A stretch of DNA of 64,000 nucleotides from Methanomicrobiaceae archaeon (GCA_016937345.1 JAFGWE010000024.1:1-64000), one strand, 5' to 3'. Shown: positions 1 to 16,360, counted from the stretch's first letter. Numbers and translations: made by a program. Notes: a model not told the origin generated them from the letters alone.

Positions 1-1299
1 ATTGGTTTTTCGATAAAGGCAGGTGTAATTCCGCTTCATAAATGGCTCCCATATGCACATCCTGCTGCACCTTCGGTAATATCTGCCCTGATGTCTGGTG
101 TGATGCTTAACATTGCGATATACGGTCTTTTGAGGATGCTTTTTGATATTTTGTCCATTGAACTCTGGTGGGGGGGGGTAATTATTGTATTTGGTCTTTT
201 ATCAGCTGTTTTAGGCGTTATGTACGCCATGAAAGAGACTGATATTAAAGCTCTTTTGGCTTACAGCAGCATTGAAAACATAGGAATTGTCCTTCTTGGG
301 ATCGGTCTTTATGTGCTGTTTTTGTCATCCTCACAGGAATTTATAGCTAATCTTGCACTTGCCGGTGCATTATTTCACGCCTTTGGTCATGGTATTGTAA
401 AATCACTTCTTTTCATGTCAGCAGGTTCTGTTGTACATTCGGTCGGGACAAGAAATATAGATGAGATGGGGGGGCTTATTAAAACAATGCCAAAGACAGG
501 AGCACTTTTTTTTACCGGAGCGCTTTCAATATCGGCAATTCCGCCTCTTTGCTGCTTTGCAGGAGAACTTATGATATTTGAATCCCTGTTCTACTCTTTT
601 CATGAGGTTGATCCATATATGCGGCTTATGCTTCTCAGCGTTCTGTCTCTTTTTGCACTATCAAGTGCAATGTCTGCGGCCTGTTTTGTAAAGGCATTTG
701 GGATATCATTTCTTGGTCTTTCCAGAACAGATGCGGCAGAGTCGACACATGAGGTGCCGGGGAGTGTGGTTATCGGCCCCGCTCTGCTTGCCGCTGCTGC
801 AATTTTAACAGGTGTTTTTTCTGACAAGATAATGATATTTTTAGGATATCCTGGTTTTCTTCCGGATATGCTGTCTGTAAGTCTTATTCTTCTGGTAATA
901 ATTGCATTTGTCTATGCTGCATTGAAGACTTTAAATCACCCGGATGACAGGGTGTGTGTTACCTGGGACTGTGGTATCAGAAGACCTGCATCAAGAATAG
1001 AATACACTGCGGCAGGATTTGCAGAGCCTCTTGTAACTATATTTTCTTCAATGTTTAGGACAAAAAAAAGTGTCGAAAAAGAGTATTTTGACTCTGAGGG
1101 ATGCAATTTTAAATCCGGAACTGCAGGTGTCAAACTGATTCGCTTTTTTGAAGAGTATATATACACACCTTTGGGTTGTGCAGTTGAAAGATTTGCAGGA
1201 TTTGTATCAGGACTTCAGAACGGAAATCTTGATACTTATCTTCTGTATCTTTTCATAGCTGTTGTTTCTGTAATTTTGTATCTGGGGGTGGTGTCATGA
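1..1299 (+). CDS. Hydrogenase-4/Ehr-like antiporter subunit (HyfB-like), 5' truncated by window edge
   Basis: The reading frame is open from base 1 and enters inside the NuoL/M/N-type proton-antiporter core, so the first part of the protein lies outside the window. The visible start carries the family motif SIKAGVIPLHKWLP with the conserved lysine and histidine, then PSVISALMSGV; the rest is a series of hydrophobic helices ending in a single helix at the C-terminus. Proteins of this family form ion-translocating membrane subunits of hydrogenase-4, formate hydrogenlyase and complex I. The stop overlaps the next start by 4 nt, and five further subunits follow in the same order as a hyf/Ehr cluster. 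Membrane location and ion pumping are inferred from family. The first in-frame ATG at 91 is internal, not the true start. Confidence 0.9.
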   Translation: MGFSIKAGVIPLHKWLPYAHPAAPSVISALMSGVMLNIAIYGLLRMLFDILSIELWWGGVIIVFGLLSAVLGVMYAMKETDIKALLAYSSIENIGIVLLGIGLYVLFLSSSQEFIANLALAGALFHAFGHGIVKSLLFMSAGSVVHSVGTRNIDEMGGLIKTMPKTGALFFTGALSISAIPPLCCFAGELMIFESLFYSFHEVDPYMRLMLLSVLSLFALSSAMSAACFVKAFGISFLGLSRTDAAESTHEVPGSVVIGPALLAAAAILTGVFSDKIMIFLGYPGFLPDMLSVSLILLVIIAFVYAALKTLNHPDDRVCVTWDCGIRRPASRIEYTAAGFAEPLVTIFSSMFRTKKSVEKEYFDSEGCNFKSGTAGVKLIRFFEEYIYTPLGCAVERFAGFVSGLQNGNLDTYLLYLFIAVVSVILYLGVVS

Positions 1300-2246
1300 T
1301 ATCAGGTGAGAGCATATTGTACTGCCTGATAAATGCAGGAATAATTCTGCTGTTATCGCCTCTCTTTTTGACGATTGTCAAAAAGGTGAAAGCAAGAATG
1401 CAGGGAAGGCAGGGTCCGCCTCTGTTTCAGATGTATTACAATATTGTAAAACTTCTCTCAAAAGAGGTTGTTTACTCCAAAACCTCCTCCTGGATTATGC
1501 GAACAACACCTGTTGTTTGTATGGCTGTTATGATTCTTGCAGCGCTTTTTGTGCCTGTAATATTTATACCGGAATCATTCGGCGGAATAGGTAATATTAT
1601 TCTGTTTCTTTATATCCTGGCATTTGGCCGGTTCATGATATCGCTTGCAGGGCTTGATGCGGGAAGCAGTTTCGGGGGTATGGGCAGTTCGAGGGAGATG
1701 AGTCTTTCTGCTGTAATAGAACCTACAATAATTGTTGTTGCAGCGGCTCTTGCTACCGTGCTTGGCACTCTTGATATATTTGAGATGATCTCAAAGACAT
1801 CTGTTGCAGATATTGCAACAATGCCAACTCTTCTTTTGATATCGGTTTCATTATTTCTGATTTTAATTATTGAAACATCACGTATACCTGTGGATAATCC
1901 TGAGACGCATCTTGAGCTTACAATGGTTCATGAAGGTATGATCCTTGAGTATTCCGGCAGAAATCTTGCTTTAATGGAGCTCTCTCATGCAGTAAAACAG
2001 GCGGTTTACATGGGACTTTTAATCGGGATACTGGTTCCTTTTGGAATAATAAATGCCGGATCTTTGTTGATTCCCGGAATTATAATTGCGGCGGTTTTAT
2101 TTCTGATAAAGGGATCTGTGCTTGCAGTAGTCATCGGACTTTTTGAGTCTTCTATGTCGAAGATGCGTTTTTTCAGCATCCCAACACTGTTTATGATTGC
2201 GTTTTTCTTTTCAGCTTTGACTATCATAATTGAGGTATTTGCATGA
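1296..2246 (+). CDS. NuoH/HyfC-like membrane subunit of the hydrogenase-related complex
   Basis: This 316-residue, roughly eight-helix protein is the NuoH/HycD/HyfC homologue that anchors the hydrophilic arm to the membrane arm. The cytoplasmic loop carries the typical KVKARMQGRQGPPLFQ sequence near residues 30-45, followed by a YYNIVKLLSKE segment. A later loop has ETSRIPVDNPETHLELTMVHEG, the family signature with acidic residues of the quinone/proton-channel entry (residues about 190-211). The start overlaps the preceding gene by 4 nt and the stop overlaps the next by 4 nt, which indicates translational coupling. All expected features of the subunit are intact, in contrast to the two hydrophilic subunits downstream. 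Confidence 0.92.
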   Translation: MISGESILYCLINAGIILLLSPLFLTIVKKVKARMQGRQGPPLFQMYYNIVKLLSKEVVYSKTSSWIMRTTPVVCMAVMILAALFVPVIFIPESFGGIGNIILFLYILAFGRFMISLAGLDAGSSFGGMGSSREMSLSAVIEPTIIVVAAALATVLGTLDIFEMISKTSVADIATMPTLLLISVSLFLILIIETSRIPVDNPETHLELTMVHEGMILEYSGRNLALMELSHAVKQAVYMGLLIGILVPFGIINAGSLLIPGIIIAAVLFLIKGSVLAVVIGLFESSMSKMRFFSIPTLFMIAFFFSALTIIIEVFA

Positions 2247-2932
2247 TTTCAGAGATATTTTCTGATGTTGTAAGAATAATTCTGGTCTTTATTCTGATAA
2301 CTGCAGCACTTACAATATCAACAAGAACTTTATCTGCTCTTGTAAGGGTATATTCGATTCAGTCGTTTCTGATTGCCATTCTTGCATGTGTCCTCTGGGG
2401 TATGTTGCAGGAAGATACACTATTACTAATAGCTGCAATTACATTTGCCGTGAAAGTGATTCTGATACCTTCATTTATTGGAAAGATTCAGAAAAGAATC
2501 AACATCAGGCGTGATCTTGAGTTTAACTACTTAAAACCTGCAGGTTCTATTGTAGTTTCGCTTGGCCTGATGCTCATGGTATATGTCGTTTTTTCCCGTG
2601 TGCTTGGAAATTTTGCAGTGGTAAATCCGCTTTTCTTCCTTGGTGCTGTTGTGGGAGTATCCTTAATGCTTATGGGAATGCTTGTCACATTCAGCCGTAA
2701 AAAGACAATCACAAAGGTTATGGGTTATCTCTCAATGGAAAACGGTGTACTTATATTCGGATGTTTTGCAACAGAACTTCCGTTAATTGTTGAGGTTATG
2801 ATTCTTATTGATCTTATTATCCTTGTAATTCTTACTACTATTCTCACTGTGGGAATTGACTCGTCGCTTGATGAATATCAGGAGCGCCTGATCCAGTATC
2901 ATCTCTGGCCGTCAGAGGAGGCAAAAGAATGA
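2243..2932 (+). CDS. HyfE-like (NuoK-related) membrane subunit
   Basis: A 229-residue, seven- or eight-helix protein that matches hydrogenase-4 component E in size and gene position, between the HyfC-like and HyfF-like genes. The C-terminal half resembles NuoK: a short GYLSMENGVLIFG segment with the membrane glutamate, followed by a helix with another acidic residue (IVEVMILIDLIIL). The C-terminal tail is hydrophilic. It overlaps both neighbours by 4 nt. In hydrogenase-4-type complexes this subunit contributes part of the proton channel; that role is inferred from the family. Confidence 0.88.
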   Translation: MISEIFSDVVRIILVFILITAALTISTRTLSALVRVYSIQSFLIAILACVLWGMLQEDTLLLIAAITFAVKVILIPSFIGKIQKRINIRRDLEFNYLKPAGSIVVSLGLMLMVYVVFSRVLGNFAVVNPLFFLGAVVGVSLMLMGMLVTFSRKKTITKVMGYLSMENGVLIFGCFATELPLIVEVMILIDLIILVILTTILTVGIDSSLDEYQERLIQYHLWPSEEAKE

Positions 2933-4404
2933 TTGCAGGTTTTTATCTTATTATTGGAATAATTGCAGTTGCCCTGATAATGGTATTAAAGACCCACAAT
3001 ATGAAAAGAGTGGTTCTTATATGTCAGGCACTGGCAAATCTTGCAGTATCGGGATATCTTATGTTCTTTGTGACTATCCCCGAAGCCACCGGATTCTTCA
3101 GAATAGATCATTTGTCTGCATTTGAAGCCGGGCTGTCATCTGTTGTCTTCTTTGCGGCATCTTTGTATGCCGGAGGCTATGTAAGACGTCTTATTGAGAC
3201 CGGAGAGTTAAGCCCCAGGAGTCTCGGGCTGTTTTATGGGGGTTTTTCAATCCTTATGACTGTTACTTCTGTTGTATTTTTCTCTGACAATCTGGTTTTA
3301 TTCTGGATTTTAGCTGAGATTACAACTGTTGTTTCTGCTATGCTTGTAGCAAGTCTTTCTGCCCGGGAGAATATTGATGCCGCTTTAAAGTACATATTCA
3401 TCGCCTCTACCGCGATGCTTTTTGCATTTATTGGTCTTATATTTCTTTTTGAGATGTCAAGAGGAGTGTCTGCTCCGGGTACACTTAACTGGTCTGAACT
3501 TATGCTTATATCTGGAGGATTTGATCCAAAGATTGCACTTGCAGCATTTTTCTTTGTATTTATCGGATTTTCAGCAAAGAGCGGAATTGTGCCGTTTCAC
3601 ACATGGCTTCCTGATGCCCATTCAAAGGCGCCGTCTGCCGTGAGTGCTGTTCTTTCAGGTGTTCTTCTAAATATTGGAATGTATGGTATAATCCGTGTAT
3701 ATGCAATTATAAGGCAGGTTCCCGGGTCAGAGGCAGGCGGTCTTTTTCTGATGGCGTTTGGAATTCTGACAGTTTCTGTCGGGGCCCTGATGATGCTTCG
3801 CCAGAAAAACCTGAAGAAACTGATTGCATGCTCAAGCATTGAGAACATGGGACTTATATTGATTGGAATATCAATCTGGACGCCCCTGGCAATATTCTGG
3901 GTAATGTTTCAGACACTTGCACATTCTCTTACAAAAGCGGAGCTGTTTCTTTCTGCAGGTATCATTCACAGACAGTATAAATCAGATAATCCTGATGAGG
4001 AGGATCAGATATGTGATGCATTTGAGATGCAGCCTTTTGCCTCATTCTGTCTTGTTGCAGGTGCTCTGGCAATAATCGGAACTCCATTGTTCCCTGTATT
4101 CCTTCCCAAGCTTTTCATACTACTTGAAACAGTGAGATTTGATCTTCTTACCGGTGTGGTAATTCTTATTTTTATTGCTATAGGCTCTTTTGCACTTTTA
4201 AGATTCATATGGACTGTTTTATCAAGCAGATCTGAACTTGATCTTATTAAAAAACCAGTACACTATCCTGTGGGAAGGGGAATGCATATCGCACTTGTAT
4301 TTCTTCTGCTTACTATGATCTATTTTGGAATATCAGTTCCAGGATGGTTTTATGATTATCTGAATATGATAGTTGCGGAACTTGGTCTGGGAGGTGCTTT
4401 ATAA
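2929..4404 (+). CDS. HyfF-like antiporter subunit (NuoM/N type)
   Basis: A complete 491-residue NuoL/M/N-type antiporter subunit with about 13 transmembrane helices. The diagnostic SAKSGIVPFHTWLPDAHSKA motif lies near residues 209-228 and includes the conserved lysine and histidine; it is followed by PSAVSAVLSGVLLNIGMYG. A second conserved block, KKLIACSSIENMG, precedes the distal half-channel. It is the second antiporter-like subunit of the cluster, so the membrane arm appears fully equipped for ion translocation. The stop codon overlaps the start of the large-subunit gene by 1 nt. Confidence 0.92.
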   Translation: MIAGFYLIIGIIAVALIMVLKTHNMKRVVLICQALANLAVSGYLMFFVTIPEATGFFRIDHLSAFEAGLSSVVFFAASLYAGGYVRRLIETGELSPRSLGLFYGGFSILMTVTSVVFFSDNLVLFWILAEITTVVSAMLVASLSARENIDAALKYIFIASTAMLFAFIGLIFLFEMSRGVSAPGTLNWSELMLISGGFDPKIALAAFFFVFIGFSAKSGIVPFHTWLPDAHSKAPSAVSAVLSGVLLNIGMYGIIRVYAIIRQVPGSEAGGLFLMAFGILTVSVGALMMLRQKNLKKLIACSSIENMGLILIGISIWTPLAIFWVMFQTLAHSLTKAELFLSAGIIHRQYKSDNPDEEDQICDAFEMQPFASFCLVAGALAIIGTPLFPVFLPKLFILLETVRFDLLTGVVILIFIAIGSFALLRFIWTVLSSRSELDLIKKPVHYPVGRGMHIALVFLLLTMIYFGISVPGWFYDYLNMIVAELGLGGAL

Positions 4405-5954
4405 TGGTGAATTCACCTGATAAAGGAAATATATTTGATAATACTGCGGTTAATTATGAAAAAATTGTGTTGCCAAATCCTGCAGGGTTTAAGGAAAAGG
4501 TTATTTCTCTAAAAGAATCAGGTTCTGTTCTTTTGTGCCTTTTATGCCTTGAAGATCCCTCTTCAAAAGATGTTTTCAGACTGATATATCTGTTTGAGAA
4601 CTTTGATTATATGCAGGTATCTGAGATAGAATATGTAACAGATGGCAGTGCAATATCTGTTTCAGAGCTATTTCCTGTTGCTTCTCTGTATGAGAGGGAG
4701 ATATCTGACGGTTTTGGTGTTGTATTTGAAGGCTCATATGACAGAAGAAGACTTTTTTTACATGAGTCATATCCTGATAATTTCCATCCGCTGAGAAAAT
4801 CATTCTTAAACGGTCCGATAAAAACCAGAGATGAGATTCCTGAAGAAGATCTTTATGTATTTAAGAGGCTTGAGGGAAAAGGGGTATATGAAGTGGCAGT
4901 AGGTCCTGTTCATGCAGGAATAATTGAGCCCGGTCATTTCAGATTTAGTGTTATCGGAGAGACTATATTTAATCTTGAAACACGCTTTTATTACCTTCAC
5001 AGGGGAATTGAAAAGCTTGCGGAAGGGAAAAAGCCTGATGAATGCTTAAAAATTGCCGAATCAGTATCTGGAGATGAGGCTGCGTCAAACTCTGTATGTC
5101 TCTGTCTTGCTGTTGAAAGGATTGCAGGAATTAAGCCTTCTTTACGTGCAGAAGCATTAAGGGGCATTGCACTTGAGATGGAAAGGATATGTTCACTTTT
5201 AAGTGACTGTGCCGGAATGTTAACTGATGTTGGATATCCTATCGGTGCAAGTCCGTTTATGGCCCGAAAAGAAGAGTGCATGAGGATTATCAAGAGACTC
5301 TTCGGTCACAGATTTATGCGGGGTTACATGAGGATTGGGGGAGTGTCGCATGACATTGTATCAACCGAGCTGTTAGTCCTGGAATCTTTTATTGCCGGAA
5401 TTGAGGAGAAAGTAAAAGAGGCTTATAATAACGCAATAAATTCCTCAACTCTTATCGACAGACTTGCAACTACCGGCATAATCGAGCCGCGTTTTGTGAG
5501 ACCCTTAAATCTTACAGGGCCTGTTGGGAGAGCCTCAGGGAGCAGAAGGGATGTAAGGGCTGATTATCCGTACGGAATTTACAAGAGTTTTACTCCTGAG
5601 TTATTCTCATCTGATGCAGGGGATGTCCTTTCGCGTTTTATGATAAAATCCGAGGATATTATGGCCTCAGCACGTTTTATCAAAAAGATTATTTGTGAGA
5701 TGCCGGAAGGAGAGATAAACGATATAAATCATGAAATTCCTGACGGATGTGCATTTGCGATGGTTGAAGGCGCAAGAGGCCAGAATCTGACATATCTGAA
5801 TGTTTATAACGGAACAGTCTGGCGGTATAAGGTAAGAACTGCTTCTTTTACAAACTGGCTCTCAATAGAGCATGCAGTGATGAATAACATTGTTCCTGAC
5901 TTTCCTGTGATAAACAAGAGTCTGAATCTTTCATATTCGGGAAATGATCTTTGA
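4404..5954 (+). CDS. Hydrogenase-like large subunit (HyfG type, NuoC-NuoD fusion) lacking all four [NiFe] cysteines
   Basis: The N-terminal ~160 residues are a NuoC-like domain, ending in the SDGFGVVFEGSYDRRRLFLH and HPLRKSF motifs. The rest is a NuoD/HycE-like large subunit that begins with VGPVHAGIIEPGHFRFSVIGE. Compared with HycE, the N-terminal CGICGFAH site reads SGDEAASN (about residues 222-229), and the C-terminal DPCYSCTD site reads NLSYSGND (about 508-515). All four nickel-binding cysteines are therefore replaced (Ser, Glu, Ser, Gly), while the surrounding fold signatures persist (RASGSRRDVRADYPYG). It cannot hold a [NiFe] centre and fits the energy-converting hydrogenase-related (Ehr) group. 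The biochemical role of such proteins is not established. Gene order and overlaps show it belongs to the membrane complex upstream. Confidence 0.93.
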   Translation: MVNSPDKGNIFDNTAVNYEKIVLPNPAGFKEKVISLKESGSVLLCLLCLEDPSSKDVFRLIYLFENFDYMQVSEIEYVTDGSAISVSELFPVASLYEREISDGFGVVFEGSYDRRRLFLHESYPDNFHPLRKSFLNGPIKTRDEIPEEDLYVFKRLEGKGVYEVAVGPVHAGIIEPGHFRFSVIGETIFNLETRFYYLHRGIEKLAEGKKPDECLKIAESVSGDEAASNSVCLCLAVERIAGIKPSLRAEALRGIALEMERICSLLSDCAGMLTDVGYPIGASPFMARKEECMRIIKRLFGHRFMRGYMRIGGVSHDIVSTELLVLESFIAGIEEKVKEAYNNAINSSTLIDRLATTGIIEPRFVRPLNLTGPVGRASGSRRDVRADYPYGIYKSFTPELFSSDAGDVLSRFMIKSEDIMASARFIKKIICEMPEGEINDINHEIPDGCAFAMVEGARGQNLTYLNVYNGTVWRYKVRTASFTNWLSIEHAVMNNIVPDFPVINKSLNLSYSGNDL

Positions 5955-5965
5955 GGTTAAGTGAA

Positions 5966-6478
5966 ATGAATGCTTTTTTCAGAAAACTGATACAAAAACC
6001 TCTTTCGGAGAAAGTAGAGGCAAAAGATCCGGATTTTGAGTTCTATGGAAATCAGTTAAAAAAAGAGATAAACTCTGTTTTTAAGAGAAGTCTTGCGATA
6101 AGAGAGGTTGACTGCGGAAGTGATAATGCAGCCGAGATAGAGATTAATAATCTTAGTTCTCCTTACTATGATGTTGAACGTTTTGGAGTTACATTTGTTG
6201 CATCTCCCAGGCATGCAGACGTTCTTTTTGTAACAGGTGCTGTAACGCACAATATGAAGTACGCGTTAAAAAAAGTGTATGATGCAGCACCTTCGCCGAA
6301 ATTTGTTGTTGCGGTTGGCGATGAAGCATGCAACGGAGGCATATTTAAGGATTCATATGCGATATATGGCCCTGTAAGTTCGGTTATTCCTGTGGATATG
6401 GAAATTTTGGGTAACCCTCCTGAACCGGTTGAGATGATAAAAGGTCTTCTTGTGTTAATGGAAAAAGCAGGAAGATAA
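5966..6478 (+). CDS. Hydrogenase-like small subunit (NuoB/HyfI type) lacking proximal-cluster cysteines
   Basis: A NuoB/HycG-type small subunit of about 170 residues. The chosen ATG has a GAGGT ribosome-binding site 8 nt upstream; an in-frame TTG at 5951 would add five residues and overlap the previous stop. Normally four cysteines bind the [4Fe-4S] cluster next to the active site. Here the GSCNGCE motif reads GSDNAAE (codons 6116-6136), GDCALNGG reads GDEACNGG (6320-6343) and PGCPP reads LGNPP, so all four ligands are missing. The fold is otherwise well preserved (HADVLFVTGAVT, NGGIFKDSYAIYGPV, VIPVDM). It is the last gene of the cluster; no HyfH/ferredoxin-like gene follows, and the next gene is on the other strand. 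Confidence 0.9.
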   Translation: MNAFFRKLIQKPLSEKVEAKDPDFEFYGNQLKKEINSVFKRSLAIREVDCGSDNAAEIEINNLSSPYYDVERFGVTFVASPRHADVLFVTGAVTHNMKYALKKVYDAAPSPKFVVAVGDEACNGGIFKDSYAIYGPVSSVIPVDMEILGNPPEPVEMIKGLLVLMEKAGR

Positions 6479-7746: not shown

Positions 7747-8238
7747 ATGTTTAAAAGAGCTCTTGTTACCTACGCAACTAAATACGGATCGACCGCAGGT
7801 ATTGCTGAGGCTATCGGTGAATCAGTAAGAGGGGAAGGAATCCAGGCTGATGTTATGCCAGCAAAGGATGCAGGCGTGATTGAATCATATGATCTTGTAA
7901 TTGTCGGAAGCCCCGTATATGCCGGAAAATGGCTGTCCGATGCTACAGATTTTCTGAAAAGAAACAGTGCCTCCTTAAAAGATAAGAAAGTCGCGTTTTT
8001 TGCGGCGGGTCTTATAATGAATGAAGATACTCCTGAGAATCGTCTTAAGATGGAGGAATCACTAAAAGAGGCAAAGGAGATTGTAAGTCCCTTTGCAACA
8101 GAATTTTTTGCAGGAAAACTTGAATATAAAAAGCTCTCATTTCCGGTTAGGATGCTTGTTAAGGCGATGAAATCATCTGAGGGTGATTTCCGCGACTTTG
8201 AAAAAATAGGGGAGTGGGGGAGGAGTCTTTTAATCTGA
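7747..8238 (+). CDS. Flavodoxin-domain protein (HemG-like)
   Basis: A 163-residue flavodoxin-fold protein. The FMN phosphate loop is TYATKYGSTAGIAEAIG near the N-terminus, and the second FMN-contact region is IVGSPVYAGKWLSDATDFL. The C-terminus has the GDFRDFEKIGEW signature seen in menaquinone-dependent protoporphyrinogen-oxidase-like flavodoxins. Two other proteins in this window (56 kb and 58 kb) share this architecture. It is probably a single-domain electron carrier or FMN oxidoreductase in the cytoplasm; the specific substrate cannot be told. It stands alone, with about 200 nt upstream that hold no gene. Confidence 0.87.
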   Translation: MFKRALVTYATKYGSTAGIAEAIGESVRGEGIQADVMPAKDAGVIESYDLVIVGSPVYAGKWLSDATDFLKRNSASLKDKKVAFFAAGLIMNEDTPENRLKMEESLKEAKEIVSPFATEFFAGKLEYKKLSFPVRMLVKAMKSSEGDFRDFEKIGEWGRSLLI

Positions 8239-8296: not shown

Positions 8297-8875
8297 TTAT
8301 TTATCAGCCATTTTTTTACATTTTTCATATCTGAAACATCCGATCTCATGATCATTGACCATTCCGACCGACTGCATGAATGCATAAACAATGACCGGCC
8401 CTACAAAAGAAAATCCTCTCTTCTTCAGATCCCTGCTTATTTTCTCGGACAATTCAGTCTTTGCAGGCATATCATGTATGGACTGAAGAGAGTTATCTAT
8501 GGGCCTTTCGCCAACGAAAGCCCAGATATATTTATCAAAAGATCCAAATTCATCTCTTATTTTTATAAATGCGCCCGCATTCCTGATTGAAGAGAGAATT
8601 TTTCTTCTGTTGCGTATGATACCGTCATTCTGCATTAATTCCTCAATCTTTGCATCATCATACGCTGCAATTTTATAGAAATCAAAATCATCATATGCTT
8701 CTTTGTAGGCATTTCTTTTTTTTAGGATAGTATCCCAGCTCAATCCTGCCTGTGCACCTTCCAGTACCAGAAATTCAAAAAGAACTCTGTCATCATGTAA
8801 AGGTACACCCCAGTGAGTGTCATGATACACTCTTTCAAGATCGTTTGCATTTGCCCACCCGCAACGGTGTTTCAT
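8297..8875 (-). CDS. tag: DNA-3-methyladenine glycosylase I
   Basis: The 192-residue protein removes 3-methyladenine from alkylated DNA as the first step of base-excision repair. It begins with the Tag signature RCGWAN, followed by YHDTHWGVPLHDDRVLFEFLVLEG and GLSWDTIL, and ends with VNDHEIGCFRYEKC, which supplies the C-terminal zinc ligands with the N-terminal Cys. An earlier in-frame ATG at 8941 would add 22 residues with no family similarity, so the ATG at 8875 (MKHRCGW) is preferred. The length matches bacterial Tag proteins (about 190 residues). It is monocistronic. Confidence 0.93.
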   Translation of the reverse strand: MKHRCGWANANDLERVYHDTHWGVPLHDDRVLFEFLVLEGAQAGLSWDTILKKRNAYKEAYDDFDFYKIAAYDDAKIEELMQNDGIIRNRRKILSSIRNAGAFIKIRDEFGSFDKYIWAFVGERPIDNSLQSIHDMPAKTELSEKISRDLKKRGFSFVGPVIVYAFMQSVGMVNDHEIGCFRYEKCKKMADK

Positions 8876-9023
8876 GTATTTCTTTAAGATTTTAAAGCAA
8901 TTATGGGTTTTTAAAAAGGGACATTGCATCATATGAAACAAAATGCTCTTTCAGATAAGCCGTTTAGTCTGAATAGGTATTTTAAAAAGAGATTGGATGG
9001 ATAGGGATAGTAGATTTTTCTCA

Positions 9024-9332
9024 TTATCTATGACCACTGATTCCCGAAGATAACATATATCCAGCACTTCCAAAAGCATCTCCCAAGGTATATATTATAA
9101 TTGTACTTAATGCAGTTTGAATAAAATTTGAGAGAATTTCTACTCTTTCATTTAATGGTGTTCCCCATTCTATTGATGGCATAAGTACCCATATGGCTAA
9201 AATTAAACTAATTGCTCCAATACAGTCAACTATAATTTTGATTCTTATATCTTCTGTAAACATAGTAAAGAAACCAAGTAATAAACCCATAGAAAATGAT
9301 AAAATAATTGCTGAAGTTGATATGATTTCCAT
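9024..9332 (-). CDS. Small membrane protein, unknown function
   Basis: A 102-residue protein with two N-terminal hydrophobic helices (about residues 5-24 and 32-50) and a third weaker one near residues 73-88. I do not recognise the family. It lies alone at the edge of an AT-rich stretch that also holds a tRNA remnant and a large candidate defence gene, so it may be part of the acquired segment. Coding status rests on the length of the open frame and the coherent hydrophobic pattern; there is no clear ribosome-binding site. Confidence 0.55.
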   Translation of the reverse strand: MEIISTSAIILSFSMGLLLGFFTMFTEDIRIKIIVDCIGAISLILAIWVLMPSIEWGTPLNERVEILSNFIQTALSTIIIYTLGDAFGSAGYMLSSGISGHR

Positions 9333-9731
9333 ATACTGTTTTTATATAATAATGTCTGGGTATAAATTTAATTGAATATCAATATATCCTGAATTTTTAC
9401 AATAATAATTTGATGATATCAAATGTGGCAAGGATATAAATTACAATATGATTATAACCCAAAAAAACAATGCGGGGGGGTAAGATTCCAAATCTGCTCC
9501 TACAAGAATAGGCCCTGAACCTATTGCATAAATTAAGCACTGTTTACATTACTTTCGCAGAGGATGGGAAGATCTGCTTTATAGATCCGGTCTCGCTAAA
9601 GTCCAGGGGTTTAAAAATACTTTAGAGCATTAGCACTATATATTGTGATACTAATAATTCATTGTAAGCACATTATAATTAATAAAAAGATGAATATTTA
9701 GCCTAAACCTGATAAATGGGGATATTGTCGT
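9333..9731. other. Intergenic stretch with tRNA remnant
   Basis: About 400 nt without a convincing protein gene. It contains the tRNA-Leu remnant (9471-9524) and otherwise AT-rich sequence. A TATA-like AT-rich stretch around 9690 could serve the gene that starts at 9732. No other structure was recognised. Confidence 0.5.
9471..9524 (-). pseudogene. tRNA-Leu(CAG) 3'-half remnant, possible attachment-site scar
   Basis: Read on the minus strand, this segment aligns without gaps to the anticodon arm and variable arm of the intact tRNA-Leu at 13513-13597. The anticodon stem is ATAGG/CCTAT around a 7-nt loop TTCAGGG with anticodon CAG, followed by TCTTGTAGGAG. It then matches the 3' end (GAATCTTAC, CCCCCCGCA). 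The T-arm has lost two bases and the T-loop is altered, and no D-arm or 5' acceptor strand can be found upstream. It is therefore a decayed 3' half, not a functional gene. It is in direct orientation with the intact tRNA-Leu on the far side of the 1180-residue gene. Confidence 0.7.
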
Positions 9732-12700
9732 ATGGAAAAAGCAGGGAAAAAAATGAGTAATGCATTTTCAACAGGAGGAGGAGGTCTTCACTTTGAAGCC
9801 CATGTTCAAGCTTCTTTTGTTGCACTTATGCTAACAGAAGGATTTGCTCCTTGTTTACCCTGCTGGCCTATTGATAAAATAAAACTACAAGGAAAATCTG
9901 ATGGTTATGATACCGATGACATGATAGTTTTCCTTAAAGGAGACAAAAATTATCAAAATTGTAAGATGCTTGCCCAGATTAAACATTCAGTTACAATTAC
10001 AGAAAATAATGAGATCTTCAGAGAAGTAATCCAATCTGCTTGGAACGACTACAATAATGAAACTCTTTTTAAAAAGAATAAAGATATAATTGCTCTAATT
10101 GCAGGTCCACTAAGTAAAATAGACATTGAAAATGTTCGTATTGTTCTTGATTGGACACGCAAATATGAAAATTCAGAGGAATTCTTCCGAAAGGTAGAGA
10201 TGACCCGTTTTAGCAGTGCTGCTAAAGTAAAAAAACTGGATGCATTCAGAAAGCAATTGACGAATGCAAATGGTGGAAATCCTGTTGCAGAAAATGAACT
10301 TTTTGAATTTCTTAAGCATTTCCATCTTTTGAGCTATGATTTAGATATAGAATCAGGAGTGGTTTTATCCCTTTTTCGTTCATTAATAGGCCATTATACT
10401 CAAGAAAAAACAGAATTAATATGGTCTCGTCTTGTTGATATCGTTCAATCATTCAATAAATGTGGTGGTACGATTACACAGGAAAACCTTCCTGAAGATA
10501 TATGTGAGTCATTCCAGCAACGAATCCCGGTTAGTATTCCAAAGGAGTATCTTCCTAGTAATGAACCGGATATCATTGATTGGAATCTCCATGAGTATGC
10601 TTCAGATCTCACTATAGCAAATATGATTGGTTCATGGGATGAGAATAATGAATCAGATCTAGAAATAATCAAGGAGGTTGTTACAGGTGACATCTATGAA
10701 TGGATGGACCATCTCAGAGAGATCTTACAATTGCATGAAACCCCAATGACTCTTAATAATGGGAAATGGAGTGTTAAGGATAGAAAGGTTTTATGGCAGA
10801 TCCTTAGAACGAGAATCTTCGATAAAGATCTTGAAAATTTCAAAAATGTTGCAATTACTATATTAAAAGAAAACGACCCTAAATTTGGCCTTCCACCAGA
10901 ACAGCGCTTTGCTGCAACCATTTATGGGAAAGCGTTAACCTATTCAGATAATATCCGTAAAGGGATAGTTGGAGGTCTTGCATTATTTGGTACACAACCA
11001 GAGGTTCTAACATACTGTTCGAGGAATAGAGCTGAATATACAGCATTTCTTACTGTTCGAGAAATATTAGATAGTTCTGATTGGGTACTATGGGGAACTT
11101 TGGATACTCATCTCCCAACATTAGCTGAAGCAGCACCAACTGAATTTTTGGATGCTGTTGAAAATGCATTGAAATCCTCTCCTTGCCCATTTGATCGGCT
11201 TTTTTCAGAAGAAGGTAATAGTGTCACCGGTGGTTGTTATATTGCTGGCTTACTATGGGCACTTGAGGCACTTGCTTGGGATGAAGAGTATATCGTTCGT
11301 TCATGTGCACTTCTGGGCAATCTTGCATCTCGTGATCCTGGAGGGAATTACATTAATCGCCCTTCAAATTCACTTTCTGAGATATTACTCCCTTGGAAGC
11401 CGCATACTATTGCAAAATTTGATAAAAGAAAGGCAGTGATGAAAATACTTGAGAAAGAAGAAGTGTCTGTTGCTTGGAAACTTGCACTTAGTCTGCTACC
11501 TAATCAAATGAGCACCTCGTCAGGATCTTATAGGCCCAAGTGGCGGAAAATTATTCCAGATGATGAAGATATTCAAATCTCTAATGAAGAGTACTGGGAA
11601 CAAATTTCTTTTTATGCTGAACGTGCTCTTTCAATGGCAAAAGATAATATTGGAAAACTGAGTGAACTTATAAGTTATCTGAATAACCTGCCAGAACCTT
11701 GTTTTGATAAATTATTAGAATATCTCTCATCTGAAAAAATTACCAATAAACCAGAGGATGAACGTCTTGACATTTGGGAAAAACTTGTAGATTTAATTCA
11801 AAAACACAAGCGCTATCCTAATGCTAAATGGGCTTTTAAAGCAGAAGAATTATTAAAGATTGAATCTCTTGTTGAAAAACTTGCTCCGAAAAATCCGATC
11901 AATTCATATCGTAGAATATTCAATCATGATTTCTTTGAATTATATGAAGTAGGGGAAGATTGGAATAAACAACAAATAAAGCTGGAAAAACGTCGTAGTG
12001 AGGCGATTAGAGAAATATTAGATTCTGATGGTTTTGAAGGAGTCTTGAAATTTGTTGAATCAATAGAAGATCCATTTAGTGTTGGATTGTCTTTGGGCTC
12101 TATTGCAGATATTTCGATAGATAATGAAGTAATTCCAAAATATTTAACAACTGAAAACAAGAAGTTGCAGCGATTTTTGAGTGGGTATATTAGAAGTCGT
12201 AATTTTTACATAGGTAGGGAATGGGTAGATAATATTGATAAGAGCAGTTGGTCCTTATCAGAAAAGTCAACCTTTTTAATTTGTTTACCATTCAACCATG
12301 AAACTTGGAACAGAGTTCCTACTTTACTTGGTGAATTAGAGTGTGATTACTGGAAAAAAGTGAAAGTTGTTCCTGAATGGAAAGATGGTGACATCGGTGG
12401 AGCTGTAGATGAATTAATTAAATATGGTAGACCCAATGCTGCTATCTTTTGTTTATGCATGGATTATTCAAATAATAAATCATTAGACAAGTCAAGTACA
12501 GTCAATGCCTTAATGTCAGCATTATCCTCTGAGGAACCATTGAATACGATGGATTATCATCATGTACAAACGCTTATCAAGGTTTTACAAGAGGATCCGA
12601 ATGTTGATCATAATGAGTTATTCAATGTGGAATGGGCATATTTACCAATTCTGGATCGACTGCATGGAATGTCACCAAAAGAGTTAGAGAGGCGACTTGC

Positions 12701-13274
12701 TTCGAATTCTGGATTTTTCTGTGATTTAATAAGTAGAATCTACTTGTCAAAAAACGAAAACAAATCAGAGAGAAAACGTAATGAAAAAGATGGAATAGTC
12801 GCTACAAACGCATGGAAATTATTGGATATGTGGCAAAAACCACCTGGAACTCAGGCAGATGGATCGTTTTCAGGAGATGAATTTAGAAAGTGGTTGAATG
12901 AGACTAAAGAAACTTGTACAAAATCCGGTCATTTAGAAGTTGCTTTGATCCATGTAGGTAAAGTTTTGTTCTATTCTCCATGTGACCTTAAGGGATTATG
13001 GATTAATGAGACTGTTGCAGATGAACTTAATAAAATAAACAATTCTAAAATGTTGGATGGATATACAACGGAAATTTTCAATTCTCGTGGTGTCCATTTT
13101 GTTGATCCAACCGGTGAGCCTGAAAGAAAACTTGCTGAAAAATATCGAGAACAGGCAGATGATCTTGAAAATGCAGGTTATCAGCGTTTTGCAGCTTCAC
13201 TTAAGGATGTAGCGCAACGATATGAGCGTGACGCTGAAGAAAATATTAATGAATATATTGAGGAAGATGACTAA
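9732..13274 (+). CDS. Large candidate defence protein: Cap4/Mrr-like nuclease motif plus long helical region
   Basis: A 1180-residue protein of unrecognised name. Residues about 12-90 resemble the PD-(D/E)xK nuclease domain found in Cap4 and Avs-type effectors: a GGGGLHFE motif (Glu22), then YDTDDMIVF (Asp63), then LAQIKHS with the Q-x-K catalytic pair (Gln82, Lys84). The remaining ~1000 residues look helical and repeat-like, with many W, L and acidic residues. A C-terminal block near WQKPPGTQADGSFSGDEFRKW and another near SRGVHFVDPTGEPERKLAEKY recall conserved blocks I associate with large uncharacterised bacterial proteins. I found no Walker A motif. Start may be ATG 9732 or 9753. It lies between two tRNA-Leu sequences and is probably a horizontally acquired, single-gene antiviral system; that function is inference. 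Confidence 0.75.
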   Translation: MEKAGKKMSNAFSTGGGGLHFEAHVQASFVALMLTEGFAPCLPCWPIDKIKLQGKSDGYDTDDMIVFLKGDKNYQNCKMLAQIKHSVTITENNEIFREVIQSAWNDYNNETLFKKNKDIIALIAGPLSKIDIENVRIVLDWTRKYENSEEFFRKVEMTRFSSAAKVKKLDAFRKQLTNANGGNPVAENELFEFLKHFHLLSYDLDIESGVVLSLFRSLIGHYTQEKTELIWSRLVDIVQSFNKCGGTITQENLPEDICESFQQRIPVSIPKEYLPSNEPDIIDWNLHEYASDLTIANMIGSWDENNESDLEIIKEVVTGDIYEWMDHLREILQLHETPMTLNNGKWSVKDRKVLWQILRTRIFDKDLENFKNVAITILKENDPKFGLPPEQRFAATIYGKALTYSDNIRKGIVGGLALFGTQPEVLTYCSRNRAEYTAFLTVREILDSSDWVLWGTLDTHLPTLAEAAPTEFLDAVENALKSSPCPFDRLFSEEGNSVTGGCYIAGLLWALEALAWDEEYIVRSCALLGNLASRDPGGNYINRPSNSLSEILLPWKPHTIAKFDKRKAVMKILEKEEVSVAWKLALSLLPNQMSTSSGSYRPKWRKIIPDDEDIQISNEEYWEQISFYAERALSMAKDNIGKLSELISYLNNLPEPCFDKLLEYLSSEKITNKPEDERLDIWEKLVDLIQKHKRYPNAKWAFKAEELLKIESLVEKLAPKNPINSYRRIFNHDFFELYEVGEDWNKQQIKLEKRRSEAIREILDSDGFEGVLKFVESIEDPFSVGLSLGSIADISIDNEVIPKYLTTENKKLQRFLSGYIRSRNFYIGREWVDNIDKSSWSLSEKSTFLICLPFNHETWNRVPTLLGELECDYWKKVKVVPEWKDGDIGGAVDELIKYGRPNAAIFCLCMDYSNNKSLDKSSTVNALMSALSSEEPLNTMDYHHVQTLIKVLQEDPNVDHNELFNVEWAYLPILDRLHGMSPKELERRLASNSGFFCDLISRIYLSKNENKSERKRNEKDGIVATNAWKLLDMWQKPPGTQADGSFSGDEFRKWLNETKETCTKSGHLEVALIHVGKVLFYSPCDLKGLWINETVADELNKINNSKMLDGYTTEIFNSRGVHFVDPTGEPERKLAEKYREQADDLENAGYQRFAASLKDVAQRYERDAEENINEYIEEDD

Positions 13275-13319
13275 TTTTCCAATATTATCTTACTTTTACC
13301 CATCTTCTTTTTTTTACAA

Positions 13320-13451
13320 GTTATTGTAGGTCCTAAAGAGGGAGCACTCGATCATATTGGAGATTCCATATCAAAACTTGTTTTGGAAAAATTGATAGTT
13401 GAAGGAAAAGCAAGATTCATCGACAATACACCTAGAGGAAAACATTCCTAG
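13320..13451 (+). pseudogene. Possible C-terminal gene remnant
   Basis: In the same frame as the preceding gene, after its stop, there is a start-less open stretch that encodes a protein-like end (VIVGPKEGALDHIGDS ... GKARFIDNTPRGKHS). The composition looks like real coding sequence, unlike the AT-rich flanks, but there is no start codon or ribosome-binding site. It may be the tail of a gene lost when the segment next to tRNA-Leu rearranged. Family not recognised. Confidence 0.35.
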
Positions 13452-13512
13452 CATCTTTTCAAACAAATTTTAGAAAATAATACTCTAATTAAAAAAAGTT
13501 TCAAAAAAAAAA

Positions 13513-13597
13513 TGCGAGAGGTGAGATTCGAACTCACGGACTCCTACGAGATTGGATCTTAAGTCCAACGCCTTTGGCCAGGCTCGGCAACTCTCGC
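13513..13597 (-). tRNA. tRNA-Leu (anticodon TAA)
   Basis: Minus-strand cloverleaf with acceptor GCGAGAG/CTCTCGC, discriminator A, D-arm GCCGAGCC...GGC, anticodon stem TTGGA/TCCAA around loop CTTAAGA (anticodon TAA), a long class II variable arm and T-arm GTGAG-TTCGAAT-CTCAC. CCA is not encoded. A TATA-like sequence (TAATATGTA) lies about 40 nt upstream on the minus strand. The 3' end faces the candidate defence gene. Confidence 0.97.
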
Positions 13598-15424: not shown

Positions 15425-15484
15425 ATTATCTTCTCCTCTTTTGGTACACTCTGCACCTGTATGAAAACATTTTATCTGTATTGT

Positions 15485-16360
15485 TTATAAATCCCCGAAA
15501 TTATCTTTATATCGCTTTAACATTCTTCCCCAGTTGGGAAGATTGGTCTGGCAGCCAATTTCTTCAACGACAAAAGATGCTGCTGTTGTTCCTACTTTAC
15601 AGCAGGTTACTTCAGGATAGCCTTTTTTATATGCTGTCAGGAATCCTGCCCTGTATGCATCGCCTGCACCGGTAGGATCTGCAAGTTTAACGGAAACTGC
15701 AGGTATATTTTTGACATCGCCATTTAAATGCAGTTCGCTTCCTTCTCCTGACATTGTGATTACTGAAACAGGGATTCTTTTTAAGAGATCACTCTTTGTT
15801 ATGCCGATTTTTTCGCACATTCCTTTTACTTCATGGTGATTTGCGAAAAGAATGTCTATATTATCGACTATGGACTCAAGCTGCTCTTTTGTATATTTTA
15901 TCAGATCCTGGCCGGGATCAAATGATGAGAATTCTGCTTTTTGTGCAACTTTCACATTAAATTCCGGTTCTGCTGTAGCCATATGAACAAAATCAAGTGA
16001 TGGTGCGTCTTTAGTGGTGAAAAGCTCTGAAGCACCCCATTCAAAAACAGTTGTCTGATCCCCTGAAAGATCGTTAAACAGGTAGCAGGTAGGCGTATTT
16101 TTGTCTTCGGAAATAAAAAAACGGCGCATAACACCAATCTGGTTTAGCCATTTTTCAAAAGGGCTGTTTTCAAAATCCCTTCCTACAGCGCTTATTAATG
16201 TGGCTTCTCCACCTAATACTGCGATACCTGCTGCAATATTCGCAGCCCCGCCGCCAAAATAGATTTTATGATCAAGAACCGGAACAGATCCATGTCTTTC
16301 CGGCAATTTTGGAACTGTAAAAATATTATCAATTGCAGTATGACCTACAACTGAAATCAT
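15485..16360 (-). CDS. PfkB-family carbohydrate/nucleoside kinase
   Basis: A 291-residue ribokinase-like sugar or nucleoside kinase. The N-terminal signature is GGGAANIAAGIAVLGG (substrate site), and the C-terminal PfkB signature is DPTGAGDAYRAGFL with the catalytic aspartate. The central lid region has DKNTPTCYLF. The substrate cannot be assigned; archaeal members include ribokinase-, inosine/guanosine- and ADP-dependent types. It starts 2 nt after the UPF0212 gene ends and belongs to the same transcription unit. Confidence 0.88.
   Translation of the reverse strand: MISVVGHTAIDNIFTVPKLPERHGSVPVLDHKIYFGGGAANIAAGIAVLGGEATLISAVGRDFENSPFEKWLNQIGVMRRFFISEDKNTPTCYLFNDLSGDQTTVFEWGASELFTTKDAPSLDFVHMATAEPEFNVKVAQKAEFSSFDPGQDLIKYTKEQLESIVDNIDILFANHHEVKGMCEKIGITKSDLLKRIPVSVITMSGEGSELHLNGDVKNIPAVSVKLADPTGAGDAYRAGFLTAYKKGYPEVTCCKVGTTAASFVVEEIGCQTNLPNWGRMLKRYKDNFGDL

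Follow-up and report, generated by a model that had tools for sequence, protein, structure and literature searches.

The six genes hyfBCEFGI, at the start of a 64,000-nucleotide stretch of DNA from a Methanomicrobiaceae archaeon (the whole of which we call the window), encode a predicted hydrogenase-like complex without a recognisable redox cofactor, the ligands of the known cofactors being absent. Judged from its sequence, it belongs to the Ehr complexes, and we suggest that it is a redox-dead Ehr that could serve as a redox-independent cation/H+ transporter, gated or regulated by its converted hydrogenase-like cap and connected in some lineages with formate/CO2 metabolism, a reading whose chances we rate as even. 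A preliminary description of the window had proposed a non-redox ion-translocating machine; the non-redox part now stands on firmer ground, the NiFe and proximal FeS sites being gone in every relative examined, while ion translocation is what we infer. The loss of every NiFe and FeS ligand from HyfG and HyfI themselves goes beyond that description.

A central question about complex I is how its hydrophilic module drives ion channels far from it, and a natural homologue with full cap and channels and no electron chemistry would separate mechanical coupling from redox; Methanosarcina carries the complex and is genetically tractable. The annotation also calls for correction, since the operon is called a hydrogenase in recent genome papers (an H2-evolving hydrogenase in a Methanospirillum study; PMC11346949), which distorts H2/ferredoxin models of methanogens.

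The six-gene cluster and its boundaries

The cluster occupies bases 1-6478 in the order hyfBCEFGI, and almost every gene shares a few bases with the next:

1..1299, + strand: hyfB-like antiporter subunit, C-terminal 432 residues, 5' end open
1296..2246, + strand: hyfC, NuoH/HycD-like subunit, acidic loop ET.R.PvDNPeTHLELTM.hEgM.LEYSG invariant
2243..2932, + strand: hyfE, hydrogenase-4 membrane subunit E-like, weak match (E=1.8e-18, under the family cut-off)
2929..4404, + strand: hyfF, second antiporter-like subunit (NCBIfam PRK08676, above cut-off)
4404..5954, + strand: hyfG, fused 30-kDa/49-kDa subunit (HycE/NuoCD-like), four NiFe cysteines replaced (VSGDEAAS; NKSLNLSYSGNDL)
5951..6478, + strand: hyfI, NuoB/HycG-like, TTG start, no ferredoxin extension, four 4Fe-4S ligands replaced

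Pfam and NCBIfam searches assign Proton_antipo_M to HyfB and HyfF, NADHdh to HyfC, Complex1_30kDa plus 49kDa to HyfG and Oxidored_q6 to HyfI, with HyfE weakly resembling the hydrogenase-4 membrane subunit.

The window begins at base 1 of contig C47 in an assembly of 52 contigs. A PF00361 search of the same genome showed that contig C45 opens with the N-terminal 193 residues of HyfB (complement of 3-581), and comparison with the homologue in the near relative G112 places about 28 HyfB residues in the assembly gap between C45 and C47. The next gene on C45 beyond hyfB is a divergent archaellin (position 1469), followed by the remaining archaellum operon. The gene after hyfI in the window genome encodes an M24 peptidase, which adjoins the archaellin at a distance of about 0.4 kb in G114 and G118, two genomes of the same genus in which the complex is absent; this adjacency supports the joining of C45 to C47. 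Because the flanking genes adjoin in sister genomes at two different sites, the six genes form an exact unit with no dedicated partner gene, and the C45/C47 junction holds no ferredoxin or other partner gene at the hyfBCEFGI site when compared with G114 and G118. The genes upstream of base 1 had been set beforehand as a test of the non-redox proposal; they consist only of the HyfB N-terminus and the divergent archaellum operon, nothing redox. The earlier statement that no HyfH or ferredoxin-like gene lies between or after the cluster genes holds likewise, and across the window and C45 none lies upstream either.

Lost metal sites and retained channel residues

Comparison with formate hydrogenlyase (FHL), Mbh and complex I revealed that both the L1 and L2 NiFe cysteines of HyfG and the proximal cluster ligands of HyfI are absent, and that HyfG has Gly where NuoD has its quinone-binding Tyr. 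The replacements are themselves conserved. At the HyfG NiFe positions Ser, Glu, Ser and Gly occur in 40 of 40 rows, so that SxxE and SxxG stand in place of both CxxC motifs, and the HyfI ligand positions (D58, A61, E124 and N155 in the window) hold Asp, Ala/Thr, Glu/Asp and Asn in 41 of 41 rows, window included, with one residue unreadable in one row. The complex therefore differs from group 4 [NiFe] hydrogenases (Hyf/Hyc) in the absence of the NiFe CxxC motifs, of the proximal 4Fe-4S cluster and of a ferredoxin-like input subunit or domain, and from respiratory complex I in that the N2 cluster and the quinone-binding Tyr are both absent. Hydrogenase-4/formate hydrogenlyase (Hyc/Hyf) and Mbh nevertheless provide the best solved-structure matches for HyfB, HyfC, HyfG and HyfI, while the NiFe site, the proximal cluster and HyfH/HycB/HycF are missing here. 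The window genome has a genuine energy-converting hydrogenase (Ech) as well: L007 (G000:C42:70000-85896) carries at 8408-13562, downstream of RNA polymerase genes, a complete six-gene Ech-type [NiFe] hydrogenase with all cysteines kept.

The missing electron-input gene, on which the preliminary description had leaned, is indeed absent, but is not special to this cluster. A same-strand gene with a 4Fe-4S motif was found within 3 kb at none of 52 FeS-minus loci, some of which end at contig edges, and the same check was positive for six of seven NiFe-plus relatives; such a gene is near only 6 of 61 NiFe-minus FeS-plus Ehr complexes, so a missing input subunit is common among Ehr.

The membrane arm, described earlier as intact, keeps its channel residues, although the contig end truncates HyfB in the window. 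In both HyfB and HyfF the TM5 Glu, the TM7 Lys and the TM8 Lys and His/Lys are invariant across about 40 relatives. The HyfC loop likewise keeps its key acidic residues in all of them, although its THLELTM sequence is family-specific. The reported lysine/histidine motifs of two antiporter-like subunits and the acidic loop of a NuoH-like subunit are thereby borne out, and close alignment found no proton-channel residue missing. The Mrp Na+/H+ antiporter shares the antiporter-like subunits and the lack of redox chemistry, but its subunit set (MrpA-G) differs from hyfBCEFGI and has no NuoH-, NuoB- or NuoCD-like members, all of which are present here.

The AlphaFold model of HyfG (pLDDT 79.6) matches FHL HycE (7z0s_E) with a TM score of 0.84, the fold being intact in the model, and that of HyfI (pLDDT 72.0) matches MbhJ (6cfw_J) with a TM score of 0.64; both are single-chain models of low confidence in the HyfI loops at the old metal sites and in the last residues of HyfG. 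HyfE had no match among solved structures. Relative to G112, dN is 0.10-0.22 and dS is saturated, which indicates strong purifying selection and not decay.

Distribution and relation to Ehr complexes

A search of 232 Methanomicrobiales genomes gave a sharp gap between matches (E about 1e-56 or better) and the next hits (1e-37), and mapped the complex to about 44 genomes, not counting that of the window; 40 of these loci were examined in detail, and all six genes were present wherever the contig allowed. Phylum-wide, the FeS-minus type occurs in 33 of 393 genomes, from Methanomicrobiales and other families of the phylum. The single HyfG protein, used as query, found no close relatives among genome contigs; for the wider family, these were scanned with a HyfG alignment and the cysteines then scored. 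NiFe-plus FeS-plus hydrogenases were found in Firmicutes, with a ferredoxin-like extension of HyfI in six of seven. The NiFe-minus FeS-plus state, that of the known Ehr, is widespread. The NiFe-minus FeS-minus state was seen in Methanomicrobiales, Methanosarcina, one Altiarchaeales, one Dehalococcoidales, one Micrarchaeota bin and several bins of the candidate-phyla radiation (CPR), binning errors being possible for single MAG contigs. In the CPR-type and Micrarchaeota loci (L098, L101, L116, L120, L128, L139 and L151) the HyfI FeS ligands are lost with other replacements, some HyfI keep one Cys, and hyfI lies ahead of hyfB in most, L116 excepted.

The assignment to Ehr follows from a hydrogenase-4-like subunit set without NiFe cysteines and from HyfG grouping with Ehr sequences. 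Ehr of Nitrospira and other bacteria have the same subunits and the same SGD/NLSYAGND motifs in place of the NiFe cysteines, and are nearest in the HyfG tree, in which the methanogen-type FeS-minus sequences form a clade (support 100) among the NiFe-minus sequences, no root being inferred. They differ in the proximal FeS cluster, which most sampled Ehr keep, although it is not known as a requirement: nearly all sampled bacterial Ehr outside candidate phyla retain the four HyfI FeS cysteines, and the methanogen type has lost all of them. Apart from minor HyfG positions, a clean distinction between the FeS-minus clade and FeS-plus Ehr is given only by D58 and N155 of HyfI, which makes loss of the cluster site the specific event of this clade. 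Parsimony on the HyfG tree gives two changes in FeS state, and a single origin of the loss is not rejected (p 0.156); the scenario of several independent losses was dropped on this value, despite the two changes and the differing replacement residues. An extreme result of the one-clade test (p 1.6e-51) arose from setting three nested unscored CPR rows against the group, and became 0.156 once these were added.

The preliminary description had considered this possibly the most novel system in the window, yet the operon type was already noted by Anderson et al. (2009), who in the available part of their text report large subunits without NiFe cysteines for Mhun_1817-1822 (M. hungatei) and Methanosarcina homologues and doubt that such an operon is a hydrogenase (PMC2686161). 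This putative membrane hydrogenase (Pmh) is apparently the same operon type; the loss of FeS ligands, channel conservation, genomic sites and carbonic anhydrase linkage go unmentioned in that part. Ehr complexes have been given an unknown function or a possible role as FDH-Ehr (PMC6349859; PMC10284858), HydDB leaves them out of the hydrogenases (PMC5037454), and CPR Ehr without metal-binding cysteines have been reported (PMC7304191). For neither the FeS loss nor the linkage to carbonic anhydrase and formate genes was a published account found in the openly accessible literature.

Genomic neighbourhood and possible roles

Of the 31 loci whose cluster is complete and whose flanks are long enough, 20 have a beta-carbonic anhydrase (CA; PF00484) gene no more than 2 kb away, a count in which related loci are not independent. 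Four arrangements occur, with the CA gene divergent about 1 kb upstream (mostly separated from the cluster by a GNAT gene), 0.65 kb upstream in the same direction, 0.5 kb upstream in the opposite one, or convergent and 19 bases downstream. The G112 cluster separates CA from the formate channel FdhC, two genes that adjoin in the otherwise collinear congener G113. In G112 and G111, and likewise in three genomes from genus g36, the complex is flanked by FdhAB and FdhC, an arrangement that agrees with one printed for Methanospirillum (PMC11346949). Mere co-occurrence with CA or FdhC was rejected as evidence, both being nearly universal in the order (205 and 211 of 232 genomes, respectively), and only linkage counts. 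Beside the redox-dead complex, L077 has two tandem CA genes (3452-4727), and in L056 the neighbouring CA is split into two ORFs (15430-15995), possibly a frameshift or pseudogene.

We propose that the membrane arm, of complex I type and topped by a hydrophilic, hydrogenase-like module without metal sites, would perform secondary cation/H+ transport in the manner of Mrp and without electron transfer, the ion and its direction being putative. HyfB and HyfF would form the ion channels, and HyfC with the converted HyfG/HyfI cap could gate them through the same contacts by which complex I and Mbh relay their conformational signal. A ligand-sensing or structural role is probable for the emptied NiFe pocket (SGDE / NLSYAG), which may permit gating by a ligand. 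During formate/CO2 metabolism, the complex may have a role in the balance of pH or cations in several methanogen lineages, where the locus is tied to formate uptake or oxidation and to CA. This transporter reading draws on the ligand loss with conserved replacements, purifying selection, intact channel residues, the exact six-gene unit and the CA/Fdh linkage. Against it, the whole HyfG/HyfI cap is costly to keep if the function is plain antiport, and against the formate/CO2 role, the window genome has no detectable beta-CA and its complex lies away from formate genes. Methanosarcina, most members of which do not use formate, carries the complex as well.

The same linkage could mean that the HyfG/HyfI pocket and the linked CA couple a non-redox conversion or uptake of CO2/HCO3- or formate to ion flow, like DAB and the redox-fed cyanobacterial NDH-1MS, in both of which complex I-like subunits are tied to CO2 hydration. 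A precedent exists in DAB2, a complex I-like carbonic anhydrase that is driven by the PMF and involves no redox chemistry (PMC13144422), and the G112 genes sit between CA and FdhC. The hyfBCEFGI operon, however, has no DabA-like subunit with a beta-CA-like zinc site and no Cup-like subunit; its CA is a separate, ordinary beta-CA that is not always linked, none being found beside the complex in Methanosarcina loci, and CA is part of a general formate locus in one methanogen family. With no Zn site evident in HyfG or HyfI, we consider such coupling unlikely, and quite doubtful in its fullest form, in which a complex I relative of methanogens, free of redox cofactors, would couple ion translocation to the chemistry of CO2/bicarbonate or formate together with the linked CA and formate channel.

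A regulatory or docking pseudo-complex that binds and modulates Ech, Eha or Fdh-Hdr-Fmd would suit the intact six-subunit Ech of the same genome and the position of the Methanospirillum complex near fdh/hdr/fmd genes (PMC11346949). We hold this to be improbable, given that a pure docking protein would not need the channel residues that are invariant in both antiporter subunits, and that no consistent partner gene accompanies the cluster. Electron transfer through an unrecognised cofactor or a partner encoded elsewhere (a non-Cys-ligated cluster, or a flavin) is very unlikely: Asp can ligate some clusters, and Asp/Glu occupy two of the four ligand positions, but the four hold only Asp/Glu, Ala/Thr and Asn, the NiFe site and the quinone Tyr are lost too, and Methanomicrobiales have neither cytochromes nor methanophenazine (PMC2686161). 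That the cluster is a decaying remnant of a hydrogenase operon, as its patchy distribution might suggest, is scarcely credible: dozens of genomes keep the frames intact, the replacement residues are conserved and dN is low.

Two further genes of the window lie outside the six-gene unit. A flavodoxin-domain protein at 7747-8238 (+), 1.3 kb past the cluster and beyond the convergent M24 peptidase gene, has protoporphyrinogen dehydrogenase (HemG-like) as its closest NCBIfam match. An ORF of 1180 residues at 9732-13274 (+) has no Pfam match; its N-terminus weakly resembles PADLOC DUF626_VIII (E=2e-5), and it may be a defence-type protein.
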